A stretch of 64,000 nucleotides of DNA, from assembly GCF_014191605.1 (NCBI RefSeq), contig NZ_JACHWU010000001.1, positions 1-64,000 on the forward strand, read 5' to 3'. Position 1 is the first letter of the stretch; each line of letters opens with the position of its first letter. The position numbers were made by a program, and so were the translations under genes. Below are positions 46,901 to 59,035 of this stretch, in pieces. The stretch is from Prauserella isguenensis (GTDB taxonomy: Bacteria; Actinomycetota; Actinomycetes; Mycobacteriales; Pseudonocardiaceae). The notes under the pieces are model-generated. The model was not told where the DNA came from. It searched no databases and worked only from the letters and a program-made list of their open reading frames with translations.

Positions 46901-49900
46901 GTGGGCGTGGCACTTCCGACCCAGCTGAACGCGACCGAGCAGGACACGCTGGTCAAGCAGATCGGCCTCTCGCTGCTGCGGGCCGCCCCGCGGGACTGGC
47001 GCAGGGTGACCGCGGTGTACCGCGCTGTGGGGAGGTATCACGAGCTGACCGGCGAGGTCGTGACCGCCGACGGCGCGACGCAGGAGTGGGTGGCCACCCA
47101 CGACATCGCGACGCTGTTCGGCAAGCTCCGCGCAGGCATGTACCGCGAGGGCCGCGGCACCTGGTTCAACGCGCGCTATCAACTCGATCACCCGTCGAGC
47201 TACAACCTCGAGTACGACCGCGACGAGCCGTCGTGGGACCTGGCACCGCCCTCGCAGGCGTACGCCGACGAACTGCGCATGTTCCCCCGTTCCGAGGAGA
47301 ACGTGCCGGACTGGCTGATGCGCCGGATGGCGGGCCTCGGTCCCGAACGTTCCGGGCCGCGGTTCCGCATGGCCCGGATCTTCGACGGCGCGGGCCCGAA
47401 CGGGCCGGTCATCACCCGGCCGGAGCTCGACCCCGACGAGCGGGACCGGGTACTCGCCTACCTCGACGCCGCTCCGACGGTCGGGCCCGCCCGTGGTTAC
47501 GACGTCGACCGGCTCGCCCGTGACCAGGCCGCCGAGGTGCCGATCGCGTTCCACAGCGATGGGTCCTGGATCTGGCCCGCCGCCGTGCCCTACTACCTGC
47601 GCACTCACGGTGTCGCCCCCGAGGCGGACCTGCTCCAGCACATCCGCGCCAACGGGTTCACCGTCCCGGAGGTGCCCGACGAGACGCGCCAGGCCGCAGC
47701 CGATCACGTCGCACACGGCCAGGGCCCGCAGCACGCGCCACAGCAAGGGCCTCCCCAGGTGCCCGGTGCCGAGGCGGCGCAGCCGACGACCCAGACCCCG
47801 CCGGTCGCGGCCGACCGGACGCGACCGGAACAGCCCGGCCCCGCGACGGGCGCAGCCGGACAGCAGCCGGACGACGAGTCGGCAGCCGGCGCGGGTGAGT
47901 CCCCGGGTACGGGTGCCGCGGCCGCAGGAGCCGCGGGCCTCGCGGGCGCCGCGGGCGCTGCGGGCGCCGCCGGTGCCATGGCCGCCCGGAACGGCACCGA
48001 CGTCGACGACGACTCCGGTCGTCCGGGTCCCGTCGACCCCGCCGATCCTGTCGACCCCGCCGACCCCAATGCGCCCGAGCTGCCGGTGCGGCGTCCCGGC
48101 AAGGCCGCGCAGGAACTCGACGAGCAGTTCAGCGGCATCAACGGCACGGGTCACACGAGCACGCCGAGCACCCCCTCGGCGTTCCTGCCCGCCGACCGCG
48201 ACGACGGAACCGCCGACCCGAGCGCCAGTGAGGAGACCGTCGTCAACGGTGTCGGTGCCCAGGGCATCGGCACCGGCGCAGGGCCGGTCCCCGAAGGCTC
48301 GGCCCCCGCCGACGCGGGGCCCACCACCGAGCCAGGCGCCGACGACCTCGGCGACCCGGAGGCCGAGACTGCGGCCTACACACTCCCCGGCCGCGGCGAC
48401 CCCGGCGAGACGGACCTGACGCGCCGCGAGGACACATGGACGGACCCGGCGACCGCCACGCCGGGCGACCGGCTCGACGCCGGCCGACACGAGGGCGCCG
48501 GACACGACGTCGAGGGATTCGACGACATTCCGCACGACCGCGGGTCCCCCGAGGGTGGCCGCCACGGTGCCGCCTCGTACGAGGATCCGTACGCACGCCC
48601 GTCCCCCGACGCGCCCCGCGACGAGCCACTGCACGAACAGGGCACGGCCTTCACGCCGATCCCCACGTTCGACGACGATCCGCGGTCCGCTCCCGGCGCG
48701 GGCGACGCGCCGGACGAGACCGGTGAGGACGCCGCGCCGGGCGACATCGGCGCCGGTGATCCCGGACGCCGTGATGTCCCGGGCGGGCACGCCGCGGTCG
48801 GCGACGCGCGACCCGACCGGGCATCCGACATGGCGGACATCGCGGGCGACGCGGACCAGCCCGGGGCATCGTCGCCGGGCGACCGCGAACCGGACTTCGA
48901 CTCGGGCCCGCCGACCACGATCACCGGCCCGGTGTCGGCGGACGGGCCGCCGCCGAGGCCCGACGTGGATCGGGAAACGGCGGCTCCCCCGATGGACCAG
49001 CCGGGTACCGCCGGCATGCCATCCGCACCGCACGCGGGGCAGGAACCGCCGGCCGAGCTGGAGGAGGAACGGACCGCTCCGACACCGCGGCAGGACTACG
49101 ACCGGCCTGCGTCCACGGCATCCGGTGCTCTCGGTGCCGCCGGTGCTCTCGGTGCCGCCGGTGCTCTCGGTGCGGCCGGTGCCGCCGCGGGAGCGTTCGC
49201 AGGTCGGGACGACGCCGACGAGTACGACGACTATGACGACTACGACGAGCGCAGCGACCGGCGGGCCTTCGACGGTCGGCCGGCCCACCGCGATCAACCC
49301 GAATACAGCGATCAGCGCGAGTACGGCGATCACCCCGAATACCGCGACGAGCCGGGGTACCGCGGTCAGCCGGACTTCGGCGACCGTGGGTACGACGACC
49401 GCGGGGGTCCCACCGGCCGGCCGGACTTCGAGGGCCGGGCAGGCTCGGCCGTCGAGCCGGATCCGGGACCGCCCACGCAGATCGGCAACATGCCGCCGCA
49501 GGATCCGGAACTCGACGACCTGCAGGACAAGCTCGACGAGCTGCAGGTCCCGGACGAGTACTACGCCCTCAGCGTGCCGTCCGATTATGGCTGGAGCCTC
49601 GAGCGGGTCGCCGACGGCTGGCGGGTCGGCTGGTACGACGGCGAGCTGAAGAGCACCGCCGTGTTCGGCGACGCCGCGGACGCGAAGGCGTTCATGCTGG
49701 GCAAGGTGCTGCTGTCCCCCGACGGCGTCGACGAGGTGCCCGAGGAACCGGTCCACGGGGACCCGGAGTTCGACTCCGAGCAGGCCGCGCCGGAACCGGG
49801 GACGTCCCGTCCGCTGCTGGCGACCCTCACCCCCGAGATCGCCACGGGAACCCGTCAGGTCTCCGAGGAACCGGCAGCGCACACGCGGGCGGTTTCTCCC

Positions 49901-50422
49901 GTGGAGGATCCCGCGGGCCGCGGTGGGCAGATCCCGCAGACCACGCAGGCCCCCGTCAGGGAGCCGGTGGCCCAGCAGGCCGCCGCACCGCACCGGCCCG
50001 CCGCGGGCGAACCGCAGCAGGCGGCACGTCCGCAGTCAGGCCAGGGCAGCCCGCACCAGGGTGGACAGCAGTGGCCGATCCAGCCGCTGCCCGGGGAGCC
50101 GCCGCTGACACTGTTCCGCGGCAAGGAGATGCGCACGCTGCCCGTGGGCAGTGAGCTCGACCGGTTCGGCGGCGCGAACGGCAACCTGACCTACGCCGCG
50201 GGCACACCGTTCGAGGAACGGTCGCTCGTGCCCGAGTGGGTCAACCGGCCGTACCACGTCTACCGCGTCCAGCGGCCGCTCGAGACGCTCGCGGGCGTCG
50301 CCATCCCGTGGTTCAACCAGCCCGGCGGCGGTGCGGCGTACATGCTGCCCGCCTCCATCGAGGAGCTGTTGGCCGACGGCGACATCATCGAGCTCGACCC
50401 CGGCGAACCGCCGATCGACTGA
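46901..50422 (+). CDS. Multidomain TNT (NAD+ glycohydrolase toxin-like) protein
   Basis: The 1173-aa protein ends in a TNT domain (about residues 1066-1167). Visible motifs are LDRFGGANGNLTYAAGTPFE, ERSLVPEW, YHVYRVQRPLETLAGVAIPW and FNQPGGGAAYM; the Gln there corresponds to the catalytic Gln of the M. tuberculosis TNT by recalled alignment. The N-terminal ~125 residues look like a YezG/DUF600-type domain (MYREGRGTWFNARYQL, YNLEYDRDEPSW). Between lie about 750 low-complexity acidic residues, two Ala/Gly-rich hydrophobic runs (about 340-364 and 739-767, the latter from an 18-bp DNA repeat), a Tyr/Asp-rich stretch and a small folded segment (about 871-942). No signal peptide is seen. The GTG at 46901 follows TATTAG by seven bases and may be leaderless; a GTG at 46907 is possible. 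Confidence 0.87.
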   Translation: MGVALPTQLNATEQDTLVKQIGLSLLRAAPRDWRRVTAVYRAVGRYHELTGEVVTADGATQEWVATHDIATLFGKLRAGMYREGRGTWFNARYQLDHPSSYNLEYDRDEPSWDLAPPSQAYADELRMFPRSEENVPDWLMRRMAGLGPERSGPRFRMARIFDGAGPNGPVITRPELDPDERDRVLAYLDAAPTVGPARGYDVDRLARDQAAEVPIAFHSDGSWIWPAAVPYYLRTHGVAPEADLLQHIRANGFTVPEVPDETRQAAADHVAHGQGPQHAPQQGPPQVPGAEAAQPTTQTPPVAADRTRPEQPGPATGAAGQQPDDESAAGAGESPGTGAAAAGAAGLAGAAGAAGAAGAMAARNGTDVDDDSGRPGPVDPADPVDPADPNAPELPVRRPGKAAQELDEQFSGINGTGHTSTPSTPSAFLPADRDDGTADPSASEETVVNGVGAQGIGTGAGPVPEGSAPADAGPTTEPGADDLGDPEAETAAYTLPGRGDPGETDLTRREDTWTDPATATPGDRLDAGRHEGAGHDVEGFDDIPHDRGSPEGGRHGAASYEDPYARPSPDAPRDEPLHEQGTAFTPIPTFDDDPRSAPGAGDAPDETGEDAAPGDIGAGDPGRRDVPGGHAAVGDARPDRASDMADIAGDADQPGASSPGDREPDFDSGPPTTITGPVSADGPPPRPDVDRETAAPPMDQPGTAGMPSAPHAGQEPPAELEEERTAPTPRQDYDRPASTASGALGAAGALGAAGALGAAGAAAGAFAGRDDADEYDDYDDYDERSDRRAFDGRPAHRDQPEYSDQREYGDHPEYRDEPGYRGQPDFGDRGYDDRGGPTGRPDFEGRAGSAVEPDPGPPTQIGNMPPQDPELDDLQDKLDELQVPDEYYALSVPSDYGWSLERVADGWRVGWYDGELKSTAVFGDAADAKAFMLGKVLLSPDGVDEVPEEPVHGDPEFDSEQAAPEPGTSRPLLATLTPEIATGTRQVSEEPAAHTRAVSPVEDPAGRGGQIPQTTQAPVREPVAQQAAAPHRPAAGEPQQAARPQSGQGSPHQGGQQWPIQPLPGEPPLTLFRGKEMRTLPVGSELDRFGGANGNLTYAAGTPFEERSLVPEWVNRPYHVYRVQRPLETLAGVAIPWFNQPGGGAAYMLPASIEELLADGDIIELDPGEPPID
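49122..49190. repeat. 18-bp tandem repeat inside the TNT gene
   Basis: GGTGCTCTCGGTGCCGCC is repeated nearly three times in frame, giving a GALGAA-type hydrophobic run at about residues 741-760. Such a repeat can change copy number by slippage without shifting frame. Confidence 0.8.
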
Positions 50423-50426
50423 GCCC

Positions 50427-50455
50427 GGGCCCGCGCGGCACGTCCGCGCGGGCCC
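50427..50455. terminator. Terminator hairpin after the TNT gene
   Basis: GGGCCCGCGCGG and CCGCGCGGGCCC form a perfect 12-bp stem with a 5-base loop, four bases after the stop. The facing pentapeptide gene ends 69 bp further on. Confidence 0.85.
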
Positions 50456-50523
50456 GCTCGCACCGTCGGTTCGGCTCACGATCGTGGACGCGATCGGACG
50501 CCCGGCCCGCTCGCGACGAGGAG

Positions 50524-51243
50524 TCAGCTCACGACCAGCCCGTGCGCCGCGGCGTACAGAAGTGCGGTGTCGACGTCGACCAGGGTGCCCGCCATGTCGG
50601 CCGCCGCCAGCGCACGTGCGTCCAGCCGTGCACCACGCAGGTCCGCGTCGGTCAGCTTCGCCGCGGTCAGCGTGGCGCCGGTCAGGTCGGCCTCCCGCAG
50701 TGTGGCCCTGCGGAGGTCGGCACCGGTCAGGTTGGCCTCGCGCAGACGCAGTCCCGACAGCTCCATGCCACGCAGCACGGCGTCGGCCAGCGACACGAGT
50801 GTCAGGTCGCAGTCGGCCAGGGTGATCGTGCGAAGACCGCAGTCGACGAACACGCTGCCGAGCAGCGAGCATCCGGACCACGAGGAGTCGCCGAGCATGG
50901 TGCGGTCGAACGTGCACGTCCGGAACGCCGACGACCGATGCACCGACTCGCCGAGATCGGTACGAGTGAAGTCGCAGTGGTCGAACACGCACCCGGAGGT
51001 CGCCAACCCGCGCAGGTCGGCGTCGGTGAAGTCGCACCGGACGAACCGGCTGCCCGCCCAGCGTTGCCCCGAGAGCACGGCGTCGCGGTAGTCCTCGCCG
51101 GTCTCCACTGCTCCGGTCTCCACTGCTCCGGGTTCGACAGCTCCGGGCTCGACTGCTCCGGGCCCGCCCGCGGGGTCGGAAGGCTCGGCGGGAAAGGGTT
51201 CGGAGGCTGAGTCGGACGAGTGCACGCCGCCAGGTTCCCACAC
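50524..51243 (-). CDS. Pentapeptide-repeat protein at the end of the mutasome operon
   Basis: The 239-aa protein has an N-terminal Pro/Glu-rich tail with a four-fold GAVEP/GAVET repeat. About 30 pentapeptide units follow (for example CDFTDADLRGL, REANLTGADLRRATLREADL, TGATLTAAKLTDADLRGA), and it ends VDVDTALLYAAAHGLVV. Pentapeptide repeats fold as a right-handed beta-helix that can mimic DNA, as in Qnr and MfpA. Two GTGs, at 51243 and 51225, are possible starts; I give the longer. It begins 18 bp after the dnaE2 stop, so it is probably co-transcribed with that SOS gene. Confidence 0.85.
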   Translation of the reverse strand: MWEPGGVHSSDSASEPFPAEPSDPAGGPGAVEPGAVEPGAVETGAVETGEDYRDAVLSGQRWAGSRFVRCDFTDADLRGLATSGCVFDHCDFTRTDLGESVHRSSAFRTCTFDRTMLGDSSWSGCSLLGSVFVDCGLRTITLADCDLTLVSLADAVLRGMELSGLRLREANLTGADLRRATLREADLTGATLTAAKLTDADLRGARLDARALAAADMAGTLVDVDTALLYAAAHGLVVS

Positions 51244-51261
51244 CCGCTGGCGACCCCGCCG

Positions 51262-54200
51262 TCACCGGAAGTCCCGCGACTTGGCGGTGATGCGCATCGG
51301 CAGATGCTGCAGCCGTTCGGCGCGCAGGCTGACCACACCGTCGGCGCGTTCGACAACCCCGCGCACCAACATTGCCGAGCTCGACCGCGCCACCCGGTGG
51401 TAGCGCGCCCACAGTCCCTGTGTGCAGACCACGTTGACCATGCCCGTCTCGTCCTCGATGTTGAGGAACGTGATGCCGCCGGCCGTCGCGGGCCGCTGGC
51501 GGTGGGTGACGGCCCCGCCGATGAGCACGCGGGTGCCGTCGTCGACCCGTTGCAGCTGCTGCGCCGGGACGACTCCCAGCGCATCGAGCCGGGACCGGAT
51601 GAACTGGGTCGGAAAGCTGTCCGGGGACAGTCCCGTCGCCCAGACGTCCGCGGCGGCCAGGTCGATCTCGTCCATGCCGGGCAGCGCGGGCGCCTCTGCC
51701 GCGGGGGTCGTGCCGGGCAGTTTCCCCGGCCGTTCCTGTGCTGCGGCTCCCGCGGACCAGAGCGCTTTGCGCCGATCCCCTTGCACCTCGTCGAAACCGC
51801 CGAAGGCGCCTGCGGTGGCGAGCGCCTCCAGCTGCGGAGTCGTGAGCCGGACCCTCCTGGCGACGTCGGCCATGTCGCGGTACGGGCCGTGTTCCTCCCG
51901 TTCCTCCACGAGCGCGTCCGCCACGGCCGTGCCGATCGTCCGTACCGCGCCGAGTCCTATTCGGACGGCATGGGTGGCCGGGGCCGTACCACCCGGCCCG
52001 ACTGCGGAACCGTTGCCGGGGGCGGGTACGGAATCACCGCCGGGGCCGGCTCCGGACCCGGCGGCCGCCGACGGTTCCGGAGGGTCTTCCCGGTCGAGCG
52101 GCTCCAGACGGGCGGAGGAATCACTGGCGTTGACGTCCGGGCCGCGAACTTCGACACCGTGCCTGCGAGCGTCGGCGGTGAGCGACTGCGGTGAGTAGAA
52201 GCCCATCGGCTGCGCCCGCAACAGCCCCGCGCAGAAGGCGTCCGAGTGGTAGTACTTGAAGTACGCACTGGCGAACACCACGTACGCGAAGCTCAGCGCG
52301 TGACTCTCCGGGAATCCGAAGTGCGAGAACGCGCGCATCCGCTCGAAGATGTGGGCGGCCATGTCGCGGTCGACCCCGTTACGGGCCGCGCCGTCGTAGA
52401 ACCGCTGCCGGAGCCGTTCCATCTTCCGGCCCGACCGCTTCGCCCCCATGGCGTGGCGCAGGGTGTCCGCCTCCGCCGCGGTGAACCCGGCGACGTCGAC
52501 GGCGATCTGCATCATCTGTTCCTGGAACAGCGGCACCCCGTACGTCTTGCCGAGCGCGTTCTCCAACAGCGGGTGGTCGTGCTCCCACTTCTCGTCCTTG
52601 TTGGCACGCCGGATGTACGGATGCACCGACCCGCCCTGGATCGGGCCGGGACGGATCAGCGCCACCTCGATGGCCAGGTCGTAGAACGTCTTCGGCTCGA
52701 GCCGGGGCAGGGTCGCGAGCTGTGCCCTGCTCTCCACCTGGAACACGCCGATCGCGTCCGCGCGTTGCAGCATCCCGTAGACGTTGTCGTCGTCGAGCGG
52801 CAGATCACTGAGGTCGACGTCGATTCCCTTGGCCTCGCGCACCATGTCGCGCATGTAGTGCAGGGCCGACAGCATGCCCAGGCCGAGCAGGTCGAACTTG
52901 ACCAGTCCGCCCCAGGCACAGTCGTCCTTCTCCCACTGCAGCACGCTCCGCTTCTCCATGCGGGCCCACTCGACCGGGCACACCTCGCTCACCGGGCGGT
53001 CGCAGATGACCATGCCACCGGGGTGGATGCCGAGGTGCCGCGGCGCGTGCTCCAGCGCGCCGGCCACCTCGAGCACACCATTCGGGATGTCGTGATCGGA
53101 CTGCCGGAGCGGCCCCCAGTGGTCGATCTGCTTGCTCCACGCGTCCTGTTGGCCGGGGGAATGCCCGAGCGCCTTCGCCGCGTCGCGGACCGCCGAGCGG
53201 GGTCGGTAGGTGATCACGTTCGCGACCAGCGCGGTGCACAATCTGCCGTACTTGCCGTAGACGTACTGGATCACCTCCTCCCGCCGGTCGGATTCGATGT
53301 CCAGGTCGATGTCCGGGTAACCGTCGCGATCCGGAGCGAGGAACCGTTCGAAGAGCAGTTTCCACTTCACCGGGTCGACCCTCGTGATGCCGAGGGCGTA
53401 ACAGACGGCCGAGTTCGCCGCGGATCCCCTGCCCTGGCACAGGATGTCGTTGCGGCGGCAGAACTCCACGATGTCCCAGACGATCAGGAAGTACCCGGGG
53501 AAGCCGAGCCGTTCGATGACGTCGAGTTCGTGGGCGAGCTGGGCGTACGCCTCCGTGTTTCCCTCCCGCGGGCCGTAGCGCCGCGTCGCCCCCTCGGCGG
53601 TCACCACGCGCAGGTGACCGGTCTCGTCACGGCCGTCCGGAACCTCGAACGGCGGCAGCTTCGGGGCGAGGATCTCCAGTGGGAAGGCGTACCGCTCGGC
53701 AAGCAGCGCGGCACGCTGAACCGCGCCGGGGTAGCGGGCGAACCGGGCGTGCATCTCGGCGCCCGACCTCAGGTGTGCCGCCCCGGACGCGGCGAGCCAG
53801 CCCTCCATCTCGTCGAGACTGCGCCGCGCGCGGATGGCCGACACCGCCTGCGCCACGTGGGCCTGCTGCGGCCGTGCGTAGTGGACGGCTCCCGTCGCGA
53901 CGGTCTGCAGGCCCAGCTCACCGGCGATCTCGGCGAGCCGGTCGTTGCGGGTACTGTCCAACGGCCCGCCGTGGTCGACGAGTTCGACGTACACGTCGTC
54001 CCGGCCGAACCGCTCGGTCAGCGCGAGCAGGGCCTCGGTCGCCGCGTCCGGCCCGCCTTCGTCGAGTGCCCGCCGGACGGAGCCTTTGCGGCACCCGGTG
54101 AGCACCACGCACCGGCCCGCGACCTCGTCGGTGATCTCGTCGAGGTCGTACACCGGCCGTCCCTTCTCCGCCCGCTGCCCCCGGGGCGGCTCGTGGTCGT

Positions 54201-54738
54201 GTCCCCGGAGCTGACCGGACGTGATGGCGCGGCAGAGACTCGTGTATCCGTCGGCGCCCTTCGCGAGCAGCAGCAGGTGTTCCGCGTCCGGGTCGGCTGC
54301 TCCGGCGGGCGGTTCCGACAGCCCGAGGCTGAGTTCCGCACCGAACACGGTGCGCATGCCGACCTCTTTGGCCGCCTCGGCGAAGCGGGCCGCGCCGTAC
54401 ATGCCGTCGTGGTCGGTGAGTGCGATGGCGTCGAGTTCCAGCCGCGCCGCCTCCTCGACCAGTTCCTCCGGATGGCTGGTGCCGTCGAGGAAGCTGAAGT
54501 TCGAGTGGCAGTGCAGCTCGGCGTACGGCACGCGGCCGCCTGCACCGGTGTCGTCGTGGCCGGGCGGGGGCAGGTCCACGGGCCTGGCGTACTTCTCCCG
54601 CCTACGCCCCCATGCCGGGCTGTCGTTGCCGTCCCCGGCCTGGTCCTGCCCGCCGTCGGAACCGCCTGACGTCGGGCCGCGACCCGACAGGGTGCGTTCC
54701 AGGTCCCGCCAGGGAACGGGCGGGTTGTTCCACCCCAC
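51262..54738 (-). CDS. dnaE2: Error-prone DNA polymerase III alpha subunit DnaE2
   Basis: The mutagenic polymerase of the SOS mutasome. The 1158-aa protein has an N-terminal ~70-residue extension, then a PHP domain (AELHCHSNFSFLDGTSHPEE). The polymerase domain carries the catalytic PDIDLDIESDRR and GRGSAANSAVCYALGI motifs, and a C-terminal OB fold (LIGGAVTHRQRPATAGGITF). A Gly/Pro-rich insertion near 900-940 interrupts the C-terminal third. The GTG start lies 3 bp after the stop of a 51-codon ORF, itself coupled to imuB. Confidence 0.96.
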   Translation of the reverse strand: MGWNNPPVPWRDLERTLSGRGPTSGGSDGGQDQAGDGNDSPAWGRRREKYARPVDLPPPGHDDTGAGGRVPYAELHCHSNFSFLDGTSHPEELVEEAARLELDAIALTDHDGMYGAARFAEAAKEVGMRTVFGAELSLGLSEPPAGAADPDAEHLLLLAKGADGYTSLCRAITSGQLRGHDHEPPRGQRAEKGRPVYDLDEITDEVAGRCVVLTGCRKGSVRRALDEGGPDAATEALLALTERFGRDDVYVELVDHGGPLDSTRNDRLAEIAGELGLQTVATGAVHYARPQQAHVAQAVSAIRARRSLDEMEGWLAASGAAHLRSGAEMHARFARYPGAVQRAALLAERYAFPLEILAPKLPPFEVPDGRDETGHLRVVTAEGATRRYGPREGNTEAYAQLAHELDVIERLGFPGYFLIVWDIVEFCRRNDILCQGRGSAANSAVCYALGITRVDPVKWKLLFERFLAPDRDGYPDIDLDIESDRREEVIQYVYGKYGRLCTALVANVITYRPRSAVRDAAKALGHSPGQQDAWSKQIDHWGPLRQSDHDIPNGVLEVAGALEHAPRHLGIHPGGMVICDRPVSEVCPVEWARMEKRSVLQWEKDDCAWGGLVKFDLLGLGMLSALHYMRDMVREAKGIDVDLSDLPLDDDNVYGMLQRADAIGVFQVESRAQLATLPRLEPKTFYDLAIEVALIRPGPIQGGSVHPYIRRANKDEKWEHDHPLLENALGKTYGVPLFQEQMMQIAVDVAGFTAAEADTLRHAMGAKRSGRKMERLRQRFYDGAARNGVDRDMAAHIFERMRAFSHFGFPESHALSFAYVVFASAYFKYYHSDAFCAGLLRAQPMGFYSPQSLTADARRHGVEVRGPDVNASDSSARLEPLDREDPPEPSAAAGSGAGPGGDSVPAPGNGSAVGPGGTAPATHAVRIGLGAVRTIGTAVADALVEEREEHGPYRDMADVARRVRLTTPQLEALATAGAFGGFDEVQGDRRKALWSAGAAAQERPGKLPGTTPAAEAPALPGMDEIDLAAADVWATGLSPDSFPTQFIRSRLDALGVVPAQQLQRVDDGTRVLIGGAVTHRQRPATAGGITFLNIEDETGMVNVVCTQGLWARYHRVARSSSAMLVRGVVERADGVVSLRAERLQHLPMRITAKSRDFR

Positions 54739-54741
54739 GAT

Positions 54742-54897
54742 TCAGTCGCCTTCCGGGGACCGTCTCGGTTCGGGGATCAGCTGCCCCGGCAGGAACTCCG
54801 GGTCAGCCGGAGACTCCGGAGCCGACCGGAACGCCGGGTCCGGATGTTGCCCACCGGGAAAACCGTCGGCGGCGCCCCGCAACGACTCGTCGTACAT
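54742..54897 (-). CDS. 51-codon ORF coupled between imuB and dnaE2
   Basis: The ORF begins in an ATGA overlap with the imuB stop and ends 3 bp before the dnaE2 GTG. It encodes MYDESLRGAADGFPGGQHPD and continues Pro/Glu-rich to EPRRSPEGD. It has normal G/C third-position bias but no recognised domain and no helix-forming stretch. The tight coupling on both sides suggests it is translated, either as a small mutasome protein or as a coupling peptide. It could also be a drifted remnant. Confidence 0.6.
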   Translation of the reverse strand: MYDESLRGAADGFPGGQHPDPAFRSAPESPADPEFLPGQLIPEPRRSPEGD

Positions 54898-56567
54898 CAG
54901 TCGTACACCCCTTCCACTGTCCACTTCGGATCTCCTCGTTCCTGCCACCGCAACAGCGCCGCGAGCGGCTGGCCACCCTCACCGGAGTCGAGTACGACCT
55001 GCAACCGGGCACAGCGGCCTCGGTCACCGGGCACCCACCAGCGCGCCGTAACCGGCCACGGGCCCGCCCAGTTCCGGACCCGCCGCGGTCCGCCGTCACC
55101 GAGCTCGACGGTCCACGGCCATGCGGTGAGCCGGTGCCGGTCGGTGACATCGAGCTGCCGCCCGTCCTCACCGGCGACCACGGCGGGCTGCGGCTCGTCG
55201 AACACGGTCGCCGGCGAGGGCCCGGGCAGCCGCTCCGGCCACGGCGCGTCGTGCCCCTCCGCCGGGGTGCGGCGATCTCCCCACCGCACGAACCTCACCT
55301 GTTCGGCGGGGCTGCGGCCGCCGTCGAACACGGCGGTGCAGACCCCTTCGGGGCCGATCAGGCCCTGGACGTGGACCAGGGCGCGGGCCGCCTTGTCCGC
55401 TTCCGGCGTGTGTTCGGCACCGGAGCCGCCGGCCCACAGGCCGAGCTGCAGCGCGCTGCCTTCGACGGTCTCCTCCGGTTCGAGCCGGAGCACGGTCACA
55501 CCGGACGTCGGGGTGCGCCCGCGGCCACGGGTCAGCCAGCCTTCGAACTGCCATCGCACCCGGTCCGCGATGCCGTCCGGGGTGAGCGGTTCCGCGCAAC
55601 GCCAGCTGCGGCCGAGTTCCTCGCCGTGTTCTGTAGTGGCGTGGATGCCCAGCCGGGTGCAGGCGAGGCCGCGGGCGGCCAGCCCTTCGTGGAACCGGTT
55701 CGCCAGGGTGCGAGCCAGGAACGCGGCGGCGTCGACCCGTTCGAGCGGCGGATCGCACATTTCCGTCACGGCGAGGTCCGGTGCCGGACGGCGCCTGCCG
55801 GGGGGACGTTCGTCCCGGCCGCTCGCCAACCGGTGCGCCAGCACTCCGTCGGCACCGAACCGGGCGAGCACGTCCCGCTCCGACAACTGCGCGAACGCGC
55901 CGAGCGTGCGGATTCCCAGGCGCCGCAACAAGTCCACCAGTTCCCCACGGCCACTGCCAGGCCGGTCGAGCTCCTGCACCCCGAGTGGGGCCAGGAACTC
56001 CGCCGCCGTACCCGCGGGTACCGGCCGTGCCCGGTGAGCGGCCAGGGTCGCCGCGAACAGTCCTTCGGAGACTCCCACCTGGCATTCGGCCCCGCTCCGC
56101 ACCGACACGTGGTCGACGAGCCGTTCCAGCAGCGGGCGTTCGCCGCCGAAGTAGCGGGACGCCCCGGCGACCGGCACGGCCACCACACCGGGACGCACCA
56201 CCTCCACCCCGACGATCAGCTCCTCCACCGCCGTCGTCACGGTTTCGAACAGTCGGGCGTCGCGGTCGTCGTCCTCGGCGAACACGGCCAACTCGGGACA
56301 CCGGTACTGCGCCTCGCGGCGCCGCATGCCACGCCGGATCCCGGCCGCGCGCGCCACGGCCGAGCACGCCACGACCCGGTTCGCAGCCAGCACCGCGGCC
56401 GGTTCCGTCACCGGCAGCCCCGCCTCCGCGGCGGCCGCCGCCACCGGCCAGTCCGGACACCACAGCACCAGCAGCCGCGGCGGCTGTGACCCCCGAGACA
56501 ACGACCCCCGAGACGACGACCCCCGAACCCGGGATTCCTGCGCCCGACTCGCCGGAAAGGTATTCAT
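54897..56567 (-). CDS. imuB: ImuB, inactive Y-family polymerase homologue of the mutasome
   Basis: Bridges DnaE2 to the sliding clamp during translesion synthesis. The 556-aa protein keeps the Y-family fold (RLLVLWCPDWPVAAAAAEAG, then VACSAVARAAGIRRGMRRRE). It lacks the catalytic acidic motifs: WCPDWP replaces DMDxFF, and PVAGASRYFGG replaces SIDE. A clamp-binding motif QLGLW is at 374-378, equivalent to QLPLW in M. tuberculosis ImuB. The N-terminus has an SRG-rich repeat (RGSSSRGSLSRG). The ATG overlaps the imuA' stop (ATGA) and is preceded by GGGAGGTG. Confidence 0.94.
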   Translation of the reverse strand: MNTFPASRAQESRVRGSSSRGSLSRGSQPPRLLVLWCPDWPVAAAAAEAGLPVTEPAAVLAANRVVACSAVARAAGIRRGMRRREAQYRCPELAVFAEDDDRDARLFETVTTAVEELIVGVEVVRPGVVAVPVAGASRYFGGERPLLERLVDHVSVRSGAECQVGVSEGLFAATLAAHRARPVPAGTAAEFLAPLGVQELDRPGSGRGELVDLLRRLGIRTLGAFAQLSERDVLARFGADGVLAHRLASGRDERPPGRRRPAPDLAVTEMCDPPLERVDAAAFLARTLANRFHEGLAARGLACTRLGIHATTEHGEELGRSWRCAEPLTPDGIADRVRWQFEGWLTRGRGRTPTSGVTVLRLEPEETVEGSALQLGLWAGGSGAEHTPEADKAARALVHVQGLIGPEGVCTAVFDGGRSPAEQVRFVRWGDRRTPAEGHDAPWPERLPGPSPATVFDEPQPAVVAGEDGRQLDVTDRHRLTAWPWTVELGDGGPRRVRNWAGPWPVTARWWVPGDRGRCARLQVVLDSGEGGQPLAALLRWQERGDPKWTVEGVYD

Positions 56568-57433
56568 CCTGCACGCACCTCCCGCAGCGGTGGGTGTGCG
56601 CCGGCCGTGTCCGCCCGCGCGATCGTTCCGTCCGGCCCCGGCAACAGCAGCGGGGTGCGGGTCGACCGCGCGGCGCCGCGCCTGCCCGCCGCTTCGACGA
56701 GAACCTCTCGTTGCGCGAGGTGTCCGTAGCCGTCGTCGACTCCGGACCAGCTCACCGCCGCGCAGCGCAGTTCGACCTCCGTACCTGGCCACGAACCGGC
56801 TGTCAGCAGCACCGCACCGCGATTCCTCGCCCGTGCCGACAATCGCCGGGCGAGATTCGGATCACGGCTTCCGCCCGCTCCTCCCGCGGGAACGACGACC
56901 AGGTCGATCCCGTCCAGCAGAGCGGCCGTCACCTGAGGCAGTTCCGCACCGGGCCGGGGGATCAGCGCGAGCCGGTGCACCGCCACCCCGAGCTCGCGCG
57001 CGGCGACCACACCGAGTTCGGGCATTCCGACGACCGCCGCCCACGATCCCCGAGCGGTCGCCTCCGCCAGGAACGCCAGCAGCAACGACGTCGACCCGCT
57101 GACCGAGACCGTGCTGCCACGGCGCAGCCCGCCCCACGGCACCAACTCCGCCAGCGCGGGTGCCACGGGCAACACCCTGTCGTCGGTGCCCGCCGTCCCG
57201 GTGCCCGCCGTCCGGGTGACCTCGGGCTCCGGTGATCCCGCGGGCGAGACCGGCCGCGGCACCGAGGCGATGTCGCCCGCCGTGCCCACACCGGGCAACG
57301 ACGCCAGCCGGGCCACGGTGTCGGCGACGCTCCCTCCGTCCGAGGGGCCCGGTCTCCCCTGCGCCGCACTCCCCTGCGCCGCAGGTTCCTCCGACGACTC
57401 CCCCTCCGTGTCCACCACCGCGGGCACTGCCAT
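56564..57433 (-). CDS. imuA': ImuA', RecA-like accessory protein of the mutasome
   Basis: The 289-aa first gene of the SOS mutasome operon. After ~85 low-complexity residues it has a RecA-fold segment (LAELVPWGGLRRGSTVSVSG), STSLLLAFLAEATARGSWAA and VVVPAGGAGGSRDPNLARRL. The P-loop is degenerate (SGSTSLL in place of GxxGxGKT), as usual for ImuA'. I chose the ATG giving MAVPAVVDTEG because CAGGGGAGGTGAGGGCG lies upstream. The operon order is imuA'-imuB-ORF51-dnaE2-pentapeptide protein. Confidence 0.9.
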   Translation of the reverse strand: MAVPAVVDTEGESSEEPAAQGSAAQGRPGPSDGGSVADTVARLASLPGVGTAGDIASVPRPVSPAGSPEPEVTRTAGTGTAGTDDRVLPVAPALAELVPWGGLRRGSTVSVSGSTSLLLAFLAEATARGSWAAVVGMPELGVVAARELGVAVHRLALIPRPGAELPQVTAALLDGIDLVVVPAGGAGGSRDPNLARRLSARARNRGAVLLTAGSWPGTEVELRCAAVSWSGVDDGYGHLAQREVLVEAAGRRGAARSTRTPLLLPGPDGTIARADTAGAHPPLREVRAG

Positions 57434-57556
57434 CGCCCTCACCTCCCCCTGCACACAGGGATCCGCCGTACGCCCGCAGAGGGACGTACGCACCGATACA
57501 TGTCTGTCGTCTGATGTCACTCAGCCGCGGGGAAGGCGGCCTCGAACCGTGCATAC

Positions 57557-57610
57557 TCGAGCCGGCGTTCGACACCCTTCATAGAACATCAGTTCGAAGA
57601 TCGTGTCAAG
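57557..57610 (-). promoter_or_regulatory. SOS promoter with two LexA boxes
   Basis: On the minus strand a perfect -35 TTGACA (57605-57610) and a -10 TTCTAT (57581-57586) are 18 bp apart. A LexA box, TAGAACATCAGTTCGA as read on the plus strand (57582-57597), sits between them and matches TCGAAC-N4-GTTCGA at 11 of 12 positions. A second box, TCGAGCCGGCGTTCGA (57557-57572), also 11 of 12, lies just downstream over the start-site region. The leader to imuA' is about 140 nt. Confidence 0.88.
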
Positions 57611-57700
57611 GCGGCCTCGTGGCACCTCGCGTGAACAACCCGCGTCACCGTCGAACAGGCCAGGGGTGCCCTCGACGGCCGCCCAGAGGGTGGATGGATC

Positions 57701-59035
57701 TCACCACCAGCCGAACACAGCCCACGCCACGAGCGGTGCCACGGCCACCGACACCAAGCCGTAGACCAGGAGGTGACGGAACAGCCGCTCCCGCTCAGCG
57801 GGTTCGGCCGACCCGAGGAGCAGGCCGCCAGTGATACCCAGCGGGTTGATGTCGGTGAGCATCATCGAGAAGGCGACCGCGAGGACCGCTCCGACCGGGG
57901 AGATTCCGCTGGCGATCAGCGGAGGCAACAGCGGCATCATCGTGACGAACACGGCGATGGAGCTCGCCGCGAACGACGTGACACCGGCCACGTAGCAGAG
58001 TCCGAGCAGACTGAGCAGAGGCGCGCCCTGCACGGTGAGCAGCTCGCTGAGCCGTTCGAACGCACCGAGCTCCTCCATCAAACCCACGTAGGTCAGCAGG
58101 CCGCCGATCAGCAACACCACGTTCCACGGCAGCCCGGTGACCGTCGTGTGCGCGTCGAGACGCAGCACCAGGTGCAGCAGCACCGCCGCGGTCAGCCCGA
58201 GATAGCCGATGTCCAGGTCGAAGCCCACGGCCAGCACGACCACCACGGCCATCGCACCGAGCGTGAGGAGCCGGGTCGCCGGTCTCGCAACCCGGGGCAC
58301 CGTACGGGTCGCCGTGCCGGCGGCTCCCGTGTGCCCCAGCCCCGGCTGAGCGCCCTGGTCCGAGTCGGCAGGGGACGTCGGTGCATGCCGACCGGGGCCG
58401 ACGCGTTCGCGTGCCACAGTCCCGCGCGGGATCGCGCCGCTCCACACTCCGACGACAAGCGCAGCTACGCAGATTGCCGCCCCCATCCCGATGCCTCCCA
58501 GGAACAGCGACACCGGCGCGGACGCGGGCAACTCGAGCTCGTCGGACATCTCCAGCGTCGCGAGTCCGTACATCGCGAACGGCGACATGACGCCGCTGAG
58601 GATGCCGGTCACGCCGACCACCGATGCGATCAGAGGCGAGTAGCGGTATCGGGCGGCCAACCCCAGCGCGATCGGGGCAACGATCGCGACCGACGCCGCG
58701 GGCAGCGTCCCGATCGCGGTCAGCACCGCACCGATGACGAACGGCACGACGGGCACCAGCACCAACCGGCCACCGACCAGACGCAGAAGGCTTTCCAGCA
58801 GCCAGTCCAACGTGCCGTTCGCGTGGGCGGTGCCGAACAGTGCCATCACCCCGACGACCAGCACCACGAAGTTCGCCGGAAAGAAATCGGTCACCTCGTC
58901 CGCGGGCACACCGGCGCCCAGACCGAGAAGGAAGGCCGCCGGCAGCGCGGTAAGTCCCAGATGCACCCGGGGCACGACTCCGGCGAGAACGAACAGCCCC
59001 ACGAGTACGGCGATGGACACATCGGCCAGCGTCAT
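57701..59035 (-). CDS. SLC13/MatC-like anion transporter
   Basis: A 444-aa membrane protein with two sets of about five or six helices (ion-transporter superfamily). It begins MTLADVSIAVLVGLFVLAGV. The first half resembles the MatC N-terminal dicarboxylate-carrier family (LVVGVMALFGTAHANGTLDW). A polar loop of about 50 residues lies in the middle (VARERVGPGRHAPTSPADSD), and the second half has GVTSFAASSIAVFVTMMPLL. It begins 1 bp after the CaiB gene stop, so it is coupled to a CoA-transferase and probably imports the acid that enzyme activates. Confidence 0.82.
   Translation of the reverse strand: MTLADVSIAVLVGLFVLAGVVPRVHLGLTALPAAFLLGLGAGVPADEVTDFFPANFVVLVVGVMALFGTAHANGTLDWLLESLLRLVGGRLVLVPVVPFVIGAVLTAIGTLPAASVAIVAPIALGLAARYRYSPLIASVVGVTGILSGVMSPFAMYGLATLEMSDELELPASAPVSLFLGGIGMGAAICVAALVVGVWSGAIPRGTVARERVGPGRHAPTSPADSDQGAQPGLGHTGAAGTATRTVPRVARPATRLLTLGAMAVVVVLAVGFDLDIGYLGLTAAVLLHLVLRLDAHTTVTGLPWNVVLLIGGLLTYVGLMEELGAFERLSELLTVQGAPLLSLLGLCYVAGVTSFAASSIAVFVTMMPLLPPLIASGISPVGAVLAVAFSMMLTDINPLGITGGLLLGSAEPAERERLFRHLLVYGLVSVAVAPLVAWAVFGWW

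Follow-up and report, generated by a model that had tools for sequence, protein, structure and literature searches.

Does a gene for a gyrase-protecting protein belong to the SOS response when it stands directly behind the SOS mutasome genes? The first 64,000 nucleotides of contig NZ_JACHWU010000001.1 (assembly GCF_014191605.1) from the soil bacterium Prauserella isguenensis (Pseudonocardiaceae), the whole of which we call the window, raise this question. The minus strand between about 57600 and 50524 carries a pair of LexA boxes and, following them, imuA', imuB, a 51-codon open reading frame (ORF), dnaE2 and a pentapeptide-repeat gene, all five in the order given by an earlier description based on the nucleotides alone (the sequence-only reading), which took them for an SOS operon to which the last gene had been added. 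Our own answer, held with moderate confidence, is that this gene encodes a damage-linked gyrase shield with a leaderless promoter of its own, probably reached in addition by SOS read-through from the mutasome promoter.

The MfpA-like product and the promoter element of its gene

The pentapeptide-repeat gene (50524..51225, minus strand) encodes 233 aa from GTG 51225, its frame being open to GTG 51243, and the product matches the Pfam pentapeptide repeats with 90 bits. A protein of the gyrase-shielding type had been proposed, and the comparison agrees with that: phmmer matched the whole repeat region (4e-50 to 6zt4 over 178 aa; 1e-48 to 2bm4), identity to the M. smegmatis MfpA in 6zt5 is 49%, and the AlphaFold model (mean pLDDT 90.8) predicts the MfpA fold, a full-length pentapeptide solenoid with C-terminal helices. 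The eleven best Foldseek matches were all MfpA structures (44-49% identity, rmsd 1.0-4.6), with 6zt5 at an rmsd of 1.0-1.1 and a TM (target) of 0.96. The nearest named relative, at 88%, is from P. aidingensis. Like MfpA of the mycobacterial mfpEDCBA conservon (2bm4, 6zt4, 6zt5), the protein has a conserved C-terminal region that ends in AAAHGL. Unlike it, the protein carries an acidic repeat tail at its N-terminus, and its gene stands directly behind dnaE2 with what appears to be a separate leaderless promoter. Since it scores 169.4 bits against the NCBIfam MfpA equivalog NF000349, below the 360-bit cut-off, and since no mfp conservon genes (mfpB-E) adjoin it in the window, where its neighbours are dnaE2 and a TNT-domain gene, we call it MfpA-like; for brevity, its gene is mfpA below.

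MfpA protects gyrase (PMC10886550). By analogy, the right-handed beta-solenoid of the window protein would most likely bind gyrase as a DNA mimic and would protect or reverse poisoned gyrase-DNA complexes, and we infer gyrase protection on that ground. Qnr proteins are likewise pentapeptide-repeat gyrase protectors, and the LexA-controlled qnrB has a link to DNA damage (PMC10886550), but the match to the Qnr family model NF033086 is much weaker (54.3 bits against a cut-off of 240), and the window gene has no LexA box of its own and sits behind a mutasome operon. The first ~45 residues, modelled with lower confidence, form the acidic tail, within which a 15-bp tandem repeat of 4.4 copies (51098..51163, minus strand) encodes GAVE[PT]. 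The length of this tail differs between genomes of Prauserella.

The likely start of mfpA is the second GTG, at 51225, which lies 36 bp past dnaE2. Six nucleotides before it stands an extended -10 element, TGG + GAACCT (51232..51240, minus strand), which would make the promoter leaderless. We followed this element through 134 loci. A search had matched 186 of 200 family genomes, and the set consists of the window and the best place per genome from 133 others (L037-L169); the 52 remaining matches, with best E-values of 1e-32 or weaker and including the partial, 61%-identical G092, were omitted, and one of the two copies in G105 was used. TGnnAnnnT was present 6-7 nt before an in-frame start at 96 of the 134 loci, against a mean of 1.1 and a maximum of 5 in 300 shuffles of the upstream bases. 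It was found whatever the relation to dnaE2: in 24/28 loci with mfpA directly behind dnaE2, 18/24 with same-strand genes or an unfilled gap between them, 27/43 with opposite-strand genes between them and 27/39 with no upstream dnaE2 on that strand. The element was rare before dnaE2 (0/88), imuB (1/76), purH (0/19), EamA (1/73), MFS (1/38), Usp (0/29), M20 (1/19), TNT (0/111) and mdh (5/51) genes. It was common before folD near mfpA in L037-L169 (74/103) and before IMPase genes (17/30), and these two may also be leaderless. No such element was found before mfpA in the outgroup loci L250-L254.

The mutasome operon and probable read-through into mfpA

All three genes of an SOS mutasome cassette are present on the minus strand: imuA' (56564..57433; NCBIfam NF058630, 177.9 bits, cut-off 65), for which we chose the ATG of MAVPAVV as start, the ORF being open as far as GTG 57520; imuB (54897..56567), assigned by a Pfam IMS domain (6.4e-15) and its operon position; and dnaE2 (51262..54738; GTG start; NF004225, 1432 bits, cut-off 939). 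The two LexA boxes ahead of imuA' were both found. Box 1, TCGAACTGATGTTCTA (57582..57597, minus strand), has the sole perfect GAACN4GTTC core in the window, and box 2, TCGAACGCCGGCTCGA (57557..57572, minus strand), is degenerate with one core mismatch, so that imuA'-imuB-dnaE2 has a predicted LexA box upstream. With the window counted, a perfect core is found no more than 700 bp ahead of imuA' at 62 of the 72 loci with an imuA' match, and paired boxes 25-27 bp apart occur in five of six same-genus relatives. The set resembles the described mutasome, which comprises at least ImuA', ImuB and DnaE2 and whose genes stand behind LexA boxes (PMC10421592); it differs in the ORF between imuB and dnaE2 and in having mfpA directly behind.

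The sequence-only reading had described these junctions as ATGA overlaps or gaps of 3-18 bp. An ATGA does join imuA' to imuB, but the 51-codon ORF (54742..54897, minus strand) overlaps the imuB stop by one base, as TGATG; 3 bp separate this ORF from dnaE2, and 18 bp separate dnaE2 from the first possible GTG of mfpA, but the likely start gives 36 bp. It saw no terminator between the genes, and we found no terminator-like site in 50200-57800 (1.7 expected in shuffles), nor a sigma-70-consensus site there (0.2 expected), the latter scan being blind to extended -10 elements. The mechanism we favour has two parts. The leaderless promoter, its start codon 6 nt downstream of the extended -10, would give basal expression of mfpA, and DNA damage would derepress the LexA promoter, from which transcription would probably run on into mfpA since no terminator was found between the two genes. 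Downstream of dnaE2 no terminator was found, but a promoter element for mfpA itself stands there. In Prauserella, judging from this layout, SOS read-through into mfpA is plausible and its SOS co-induction possible, though mfpA and the mutasome genes would probably share their induction only in part.

A LexA box belonging to mfpA itself (at most one mismatch, within 3 kb upstream) was found at none of the 134 loci except L143, and two-mismatch LexA-like sites are present within several mfpA loci. Perfect boxes ~3.5-3.8 kb upstream of mfpA in L140, L149 and L151 were rejected as controlling it because YCII, ECF sigma and TetR genes and, in two of them, an opposite-strand RibD_C gene intervene.

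A linkage of mfpA and dnaE2 had first been suggested by Rv and MSMEG gene numbers. Classed by tblastn and our own simple gene caller, 28 of the 134 family loci, from 9 genera, have mfpA directly behind dnaE2, one of them (L060) with an ill-defined gap of -91; the adjacency, whose absence in relatives would have counted against the sequence-only reading, is conserved to this extent and holds in 7/7 genomes of the genus. Same-strand extra genes or an unfilled gap separate the two in 24 loci and opposite-strand genes in 43, the inserted genes including ones for universal stress protein, NUDIX, hemerythrin, glyoxalase, M20 peptidase, LysR and reverse transcriptase. The remaining 39 have no same-strand upstream dnaE2 (6 with dnaE2 on the other strand, 33 with none in the region examined, although some regions, such as L065 and L163, stop early at a contig end and dnaE2 may lie beyond). 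SOS read-through is unlikely in these last two classes, given the opposite-strand genes or the lack of an upstream dnaE2. On a quick MfpA tree, direct adjacency requires at least 11 changes and linkage 10.

PafBC-type boxes in relatives and the competing explanations

Relatives suggest another route from DNA damage to mfpA. The published consensus for PafBC, which serves a DNA-damage response that depends on neither LexA nor RecA, is tTGTCRgtg, 8 nt, TannnT (PMC5656591). A usable -10, counting TAnnnT without TG as well, was available at 109 of the 134 loci, and GTC[AG] stood at the PafBC offset in 32 of these, from 15 genera; each of the other 38 offsets had it in at most 11 loci and 3 genera. 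For TGTC[AG] the figures were 20 loci and 12 genera against at most one locus at other offsets. At folD promoters GTC[AG] occurred at the PafBC offset in 1/74, and in 12/74 (2 genera) at an unrelated offset; at IMPase promoters the PafBC offset had it in 0/18. The relatives' mfpA promoters share TGTCR and the 8-nt spacing to an AnnnT hexamer with PafBC promoters (PMC5656591), but the first base of the hexamer is mostly not T and the box is absent in the window clade. With the box at the mfpA promoters of 15 genera, there may be two recurrent ways in which the gyrase shield is tied to damage, and the Prauserella clade may have exchanged the box for a place behind dnaE2. A test of such an exchange on the tree had 2 independent pairs, on starred branches, to go by. 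A separate conserved gttaccaac element lies upstream of the mfpA -10 in g8 (L069, L077, L083, L093 and others) and g22 (L051, L068 and others), and CAAC-type sequences resembling it occur in Lentzea and Saccharothrix loci.

It is rather improbable, in our judgement, that mfpA is a bystander, expressed from its own promoter for gyrase homeostasis and next to dnaE2 through inherited synteny devoid of regulatory meaning. Much of the support for this comes from 60 order-level genomes outside the family, picked among mfpA carriers and searched with a DnaE2 fragment. Two outgroup loci (L253, L254) have mfpA directly after purH and no dnaE2, and 8/8 f16 genomes tested, all with mfpA, gave no dnaE2 match at 1e-80. 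Within the family, 82 of the 134 loci either have opposite-strand genes between dnaE2 and mfpA or show no linkage in the region examined. In L252 and L254 mfpA has a folD match next to it, and this, together with the purH-mfpA order of L253 and L254, indicates that purH-mfpA-folD is probably the older frame, the mutasome having come upstream later. Elsewhere in the sample, dnaE2 lies on the same strand ~7-18 kb upstream of mfpA in 21/25 genomes of f8/g53, which from its conservon-like gene order is presumably Mycobacterium, and on a different contig in the other four. Of the 35 other outgroup genomes, 27 have dnaE2 away from mfpA, on the same contig at 69 kb or more (12) or on different contigs (15). 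The ORFs adjoining mfpA in L250 (200, 140, 147 and 959 aa) would also fit a conservon. But the bystander explanation has to contend with the lack of a detectable terminator past dnaE2, and the PafBC boxes of 15 genera speak for control of mfpA by damage.

The original proposal was a five-gene SOS operon, in which a promoterless mfpA is transcribed along with the mutasome and solely from the LexA promoter. The short gap, the shared strand, the failure to find a terminator and the conservation of the arrangement in the genus are all in its favour. What stood of it is a mutasome behind LexA boxes with mfpA directly adjacent; what did not is the simple fifth gene, as a conserved leaderless -10, kept at loci unlinked to dnaE2, is found in the dnaE2-mfpA gap with exactly 6 nt between it and GTG 51225. 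The sequence-only reading had itself named a promoter at this place as evidence against it, and at the level of sequence one appears to be there. Moreover, dnaE2 ends 18 or 36 bp short of mfpA and does not overlap its start, and the -10 is lacking in loci whose upstream gene mostly does overlap mfpA. Four of these are g17 loci, with a reverse transcriptase gene that runs 4-8 bp into the start; the others are all seven g20 and g31 loci, six of which have a stress-protein (Usp) gene running 4 bp into it. L140 is an exception, for a TetR gene call overlaps the mfpA start and yet the -10 is kept. We regard the promoterless operon as unlikely.

Control of mfpA by PafBC in Prauserella as well, by way of a diverged box, is very improbable: L042, sister of the window clade, carries the box (CTGTCGGGG), as does the near relative L059, and a tandem pair of WYL genes (pafB-pafC-like) stands behind a putative pafA in the window genome, but in the window clade (window, L037-L041) the -26 region reaches only 2-3/9. 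For our own reading the WYL pair also counts, as do occurrences of the box elsewhere in the window genome, which contains it with a full TAnnnT 9 times, against once for the reversed pattern. Genes behind eight of the nine include uvrB-like, proteasomal ATPase and exonuclease/GIY-YIG genes, and others encode RibD_C, MatE, GCS2, short-chain dehydrogenase and transposase. We take the gene ahead of the WYL pair to be pafA, and the UvrB-like product to be such, by eye.

Several observations weigh against a damage-linked shield served by both its own promoter and read-through. The window mfpA scores 2/9 for the PafBC box and lacks TTGTCRGTG-8 nt-TAnnnT, and in an overlapping second set, rich in Amycolatopsis and Lentzea (80 named and 5 outgroup loci; -10 in 69/85), the box occurs in 5/85 only, which makes it a trait of certain genera and not of every one. 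No PafBC box of at least 7/9 precedes mfpA in L250 or L251. The M. smegmatis PafBC motif reportedly does not appear conserved in S. venezuelae (PMC9380542), and a mitomycin C study of M. tuberculosis has neither mfpA nor Rv3361c in its main text (PMC8151990). The M. smegmatis mfpEA promoter rises only slightly with ciprofloxacin, unlike an SOS gene (PMC8007378). A promoter of its own makes SOS co-induction of mfpA unnecessary, and the neighbourhood may be inherited synteny, as the purH-mfpA order without dnaE2 in two outgroup loci illustrates.

A candidate mutasome microprotein, further neighbours and the place of MfpA

An ORF that begins on or close to the imuB stop and whose product ends in the motif I-P-x-P-R-R-S-P-E is present in 45 of 75 testable imuB-dnaE2 loci, from 11 genera; in L055, L066 and L073 the motif lies off its usual place. 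The invariant proline is written with 4 codons and the invariant arginine with 6, a synonymous variation indicating that conservation acts on the microprotein and not on the DNA. It has no Pfam or NCBIfam match at E 0.01. The ORF was not found in the other 30 loci, 26 of which have an imuB-dnaE2 gap of at most 88 bp, and the motif is fused to the ImuB C-terminus in 0/30 of them. One motif match near the dnaE2 start in L250/L251, on the opposite strand in L250, was set aside as unlike the microprotein. Some g32 loci have a microprotein with an N-terminal CxECR-type cysteine stretch. The ImuB-DnaE2 contact is called unknown in mechanism by PMC10421592, and the conserved microprotein is a candidate for it.

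Among further neighbours, a gene convergent to mfpA (46901-50422, plus strand) encodes a ~1170-aa protein with a C-terminal tuberculosis necrotizing toxin (TNT) domain (Pfam 1.2e-30), and its related family f1 occurs in 99/134 regions. Reverse transcriptase genes were found in thirteen loci (L142:8444-10263, L147, L152, L160, L043, L045, L046, L053, L064, L072, L078, L106 and L132), directly before mfpA in 11 of them; the two members scanned are RVT_1, and in four genomes that lack dnaE2 in the region the gene extends 4-8 bp past the start of mfpA. A scan of viral contigs with a DnaE2 stretch returned no relative.

A recent preprint states that mfpA is exclusively identified in Mycobacteriaceae (PMC13015309); 178 of 249 order genomes match our MfpA profile at 1e-25, so MfpA-like genes are wider than that. 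In the open-access library searched, which does not extend to subscription journals, no paper names MfpA together with dnaE2, or PafBC together with mfpA; five name MfpA and LexA, PMC10886550 among them, and the excerpted text of PMC3388012 draws no link between pentapeptide-repeat and mutasome genes.

Two outcomes are the more surprising: PafBC-type promoters among the relatives, and the microprotein encoded in the mutasome operon. Tentatively, and with less confidence than we give to the Prauserella gene itself, they would make the MfpA-like shield of Pseudonocardiaceae a damage-response protein, governed by PafBC promoters in at least 15 genera and re-wired to the SOS mutasome in Prauserella, with the IPxPRRSPE microprotein as a fourth, so far undescribed, component of the mutasome. 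That mfpA has a PafBC-type promoter in many genera, and stands behind the mutasome in another, suggests that gyrase protection belongs to the DNA-damage response.

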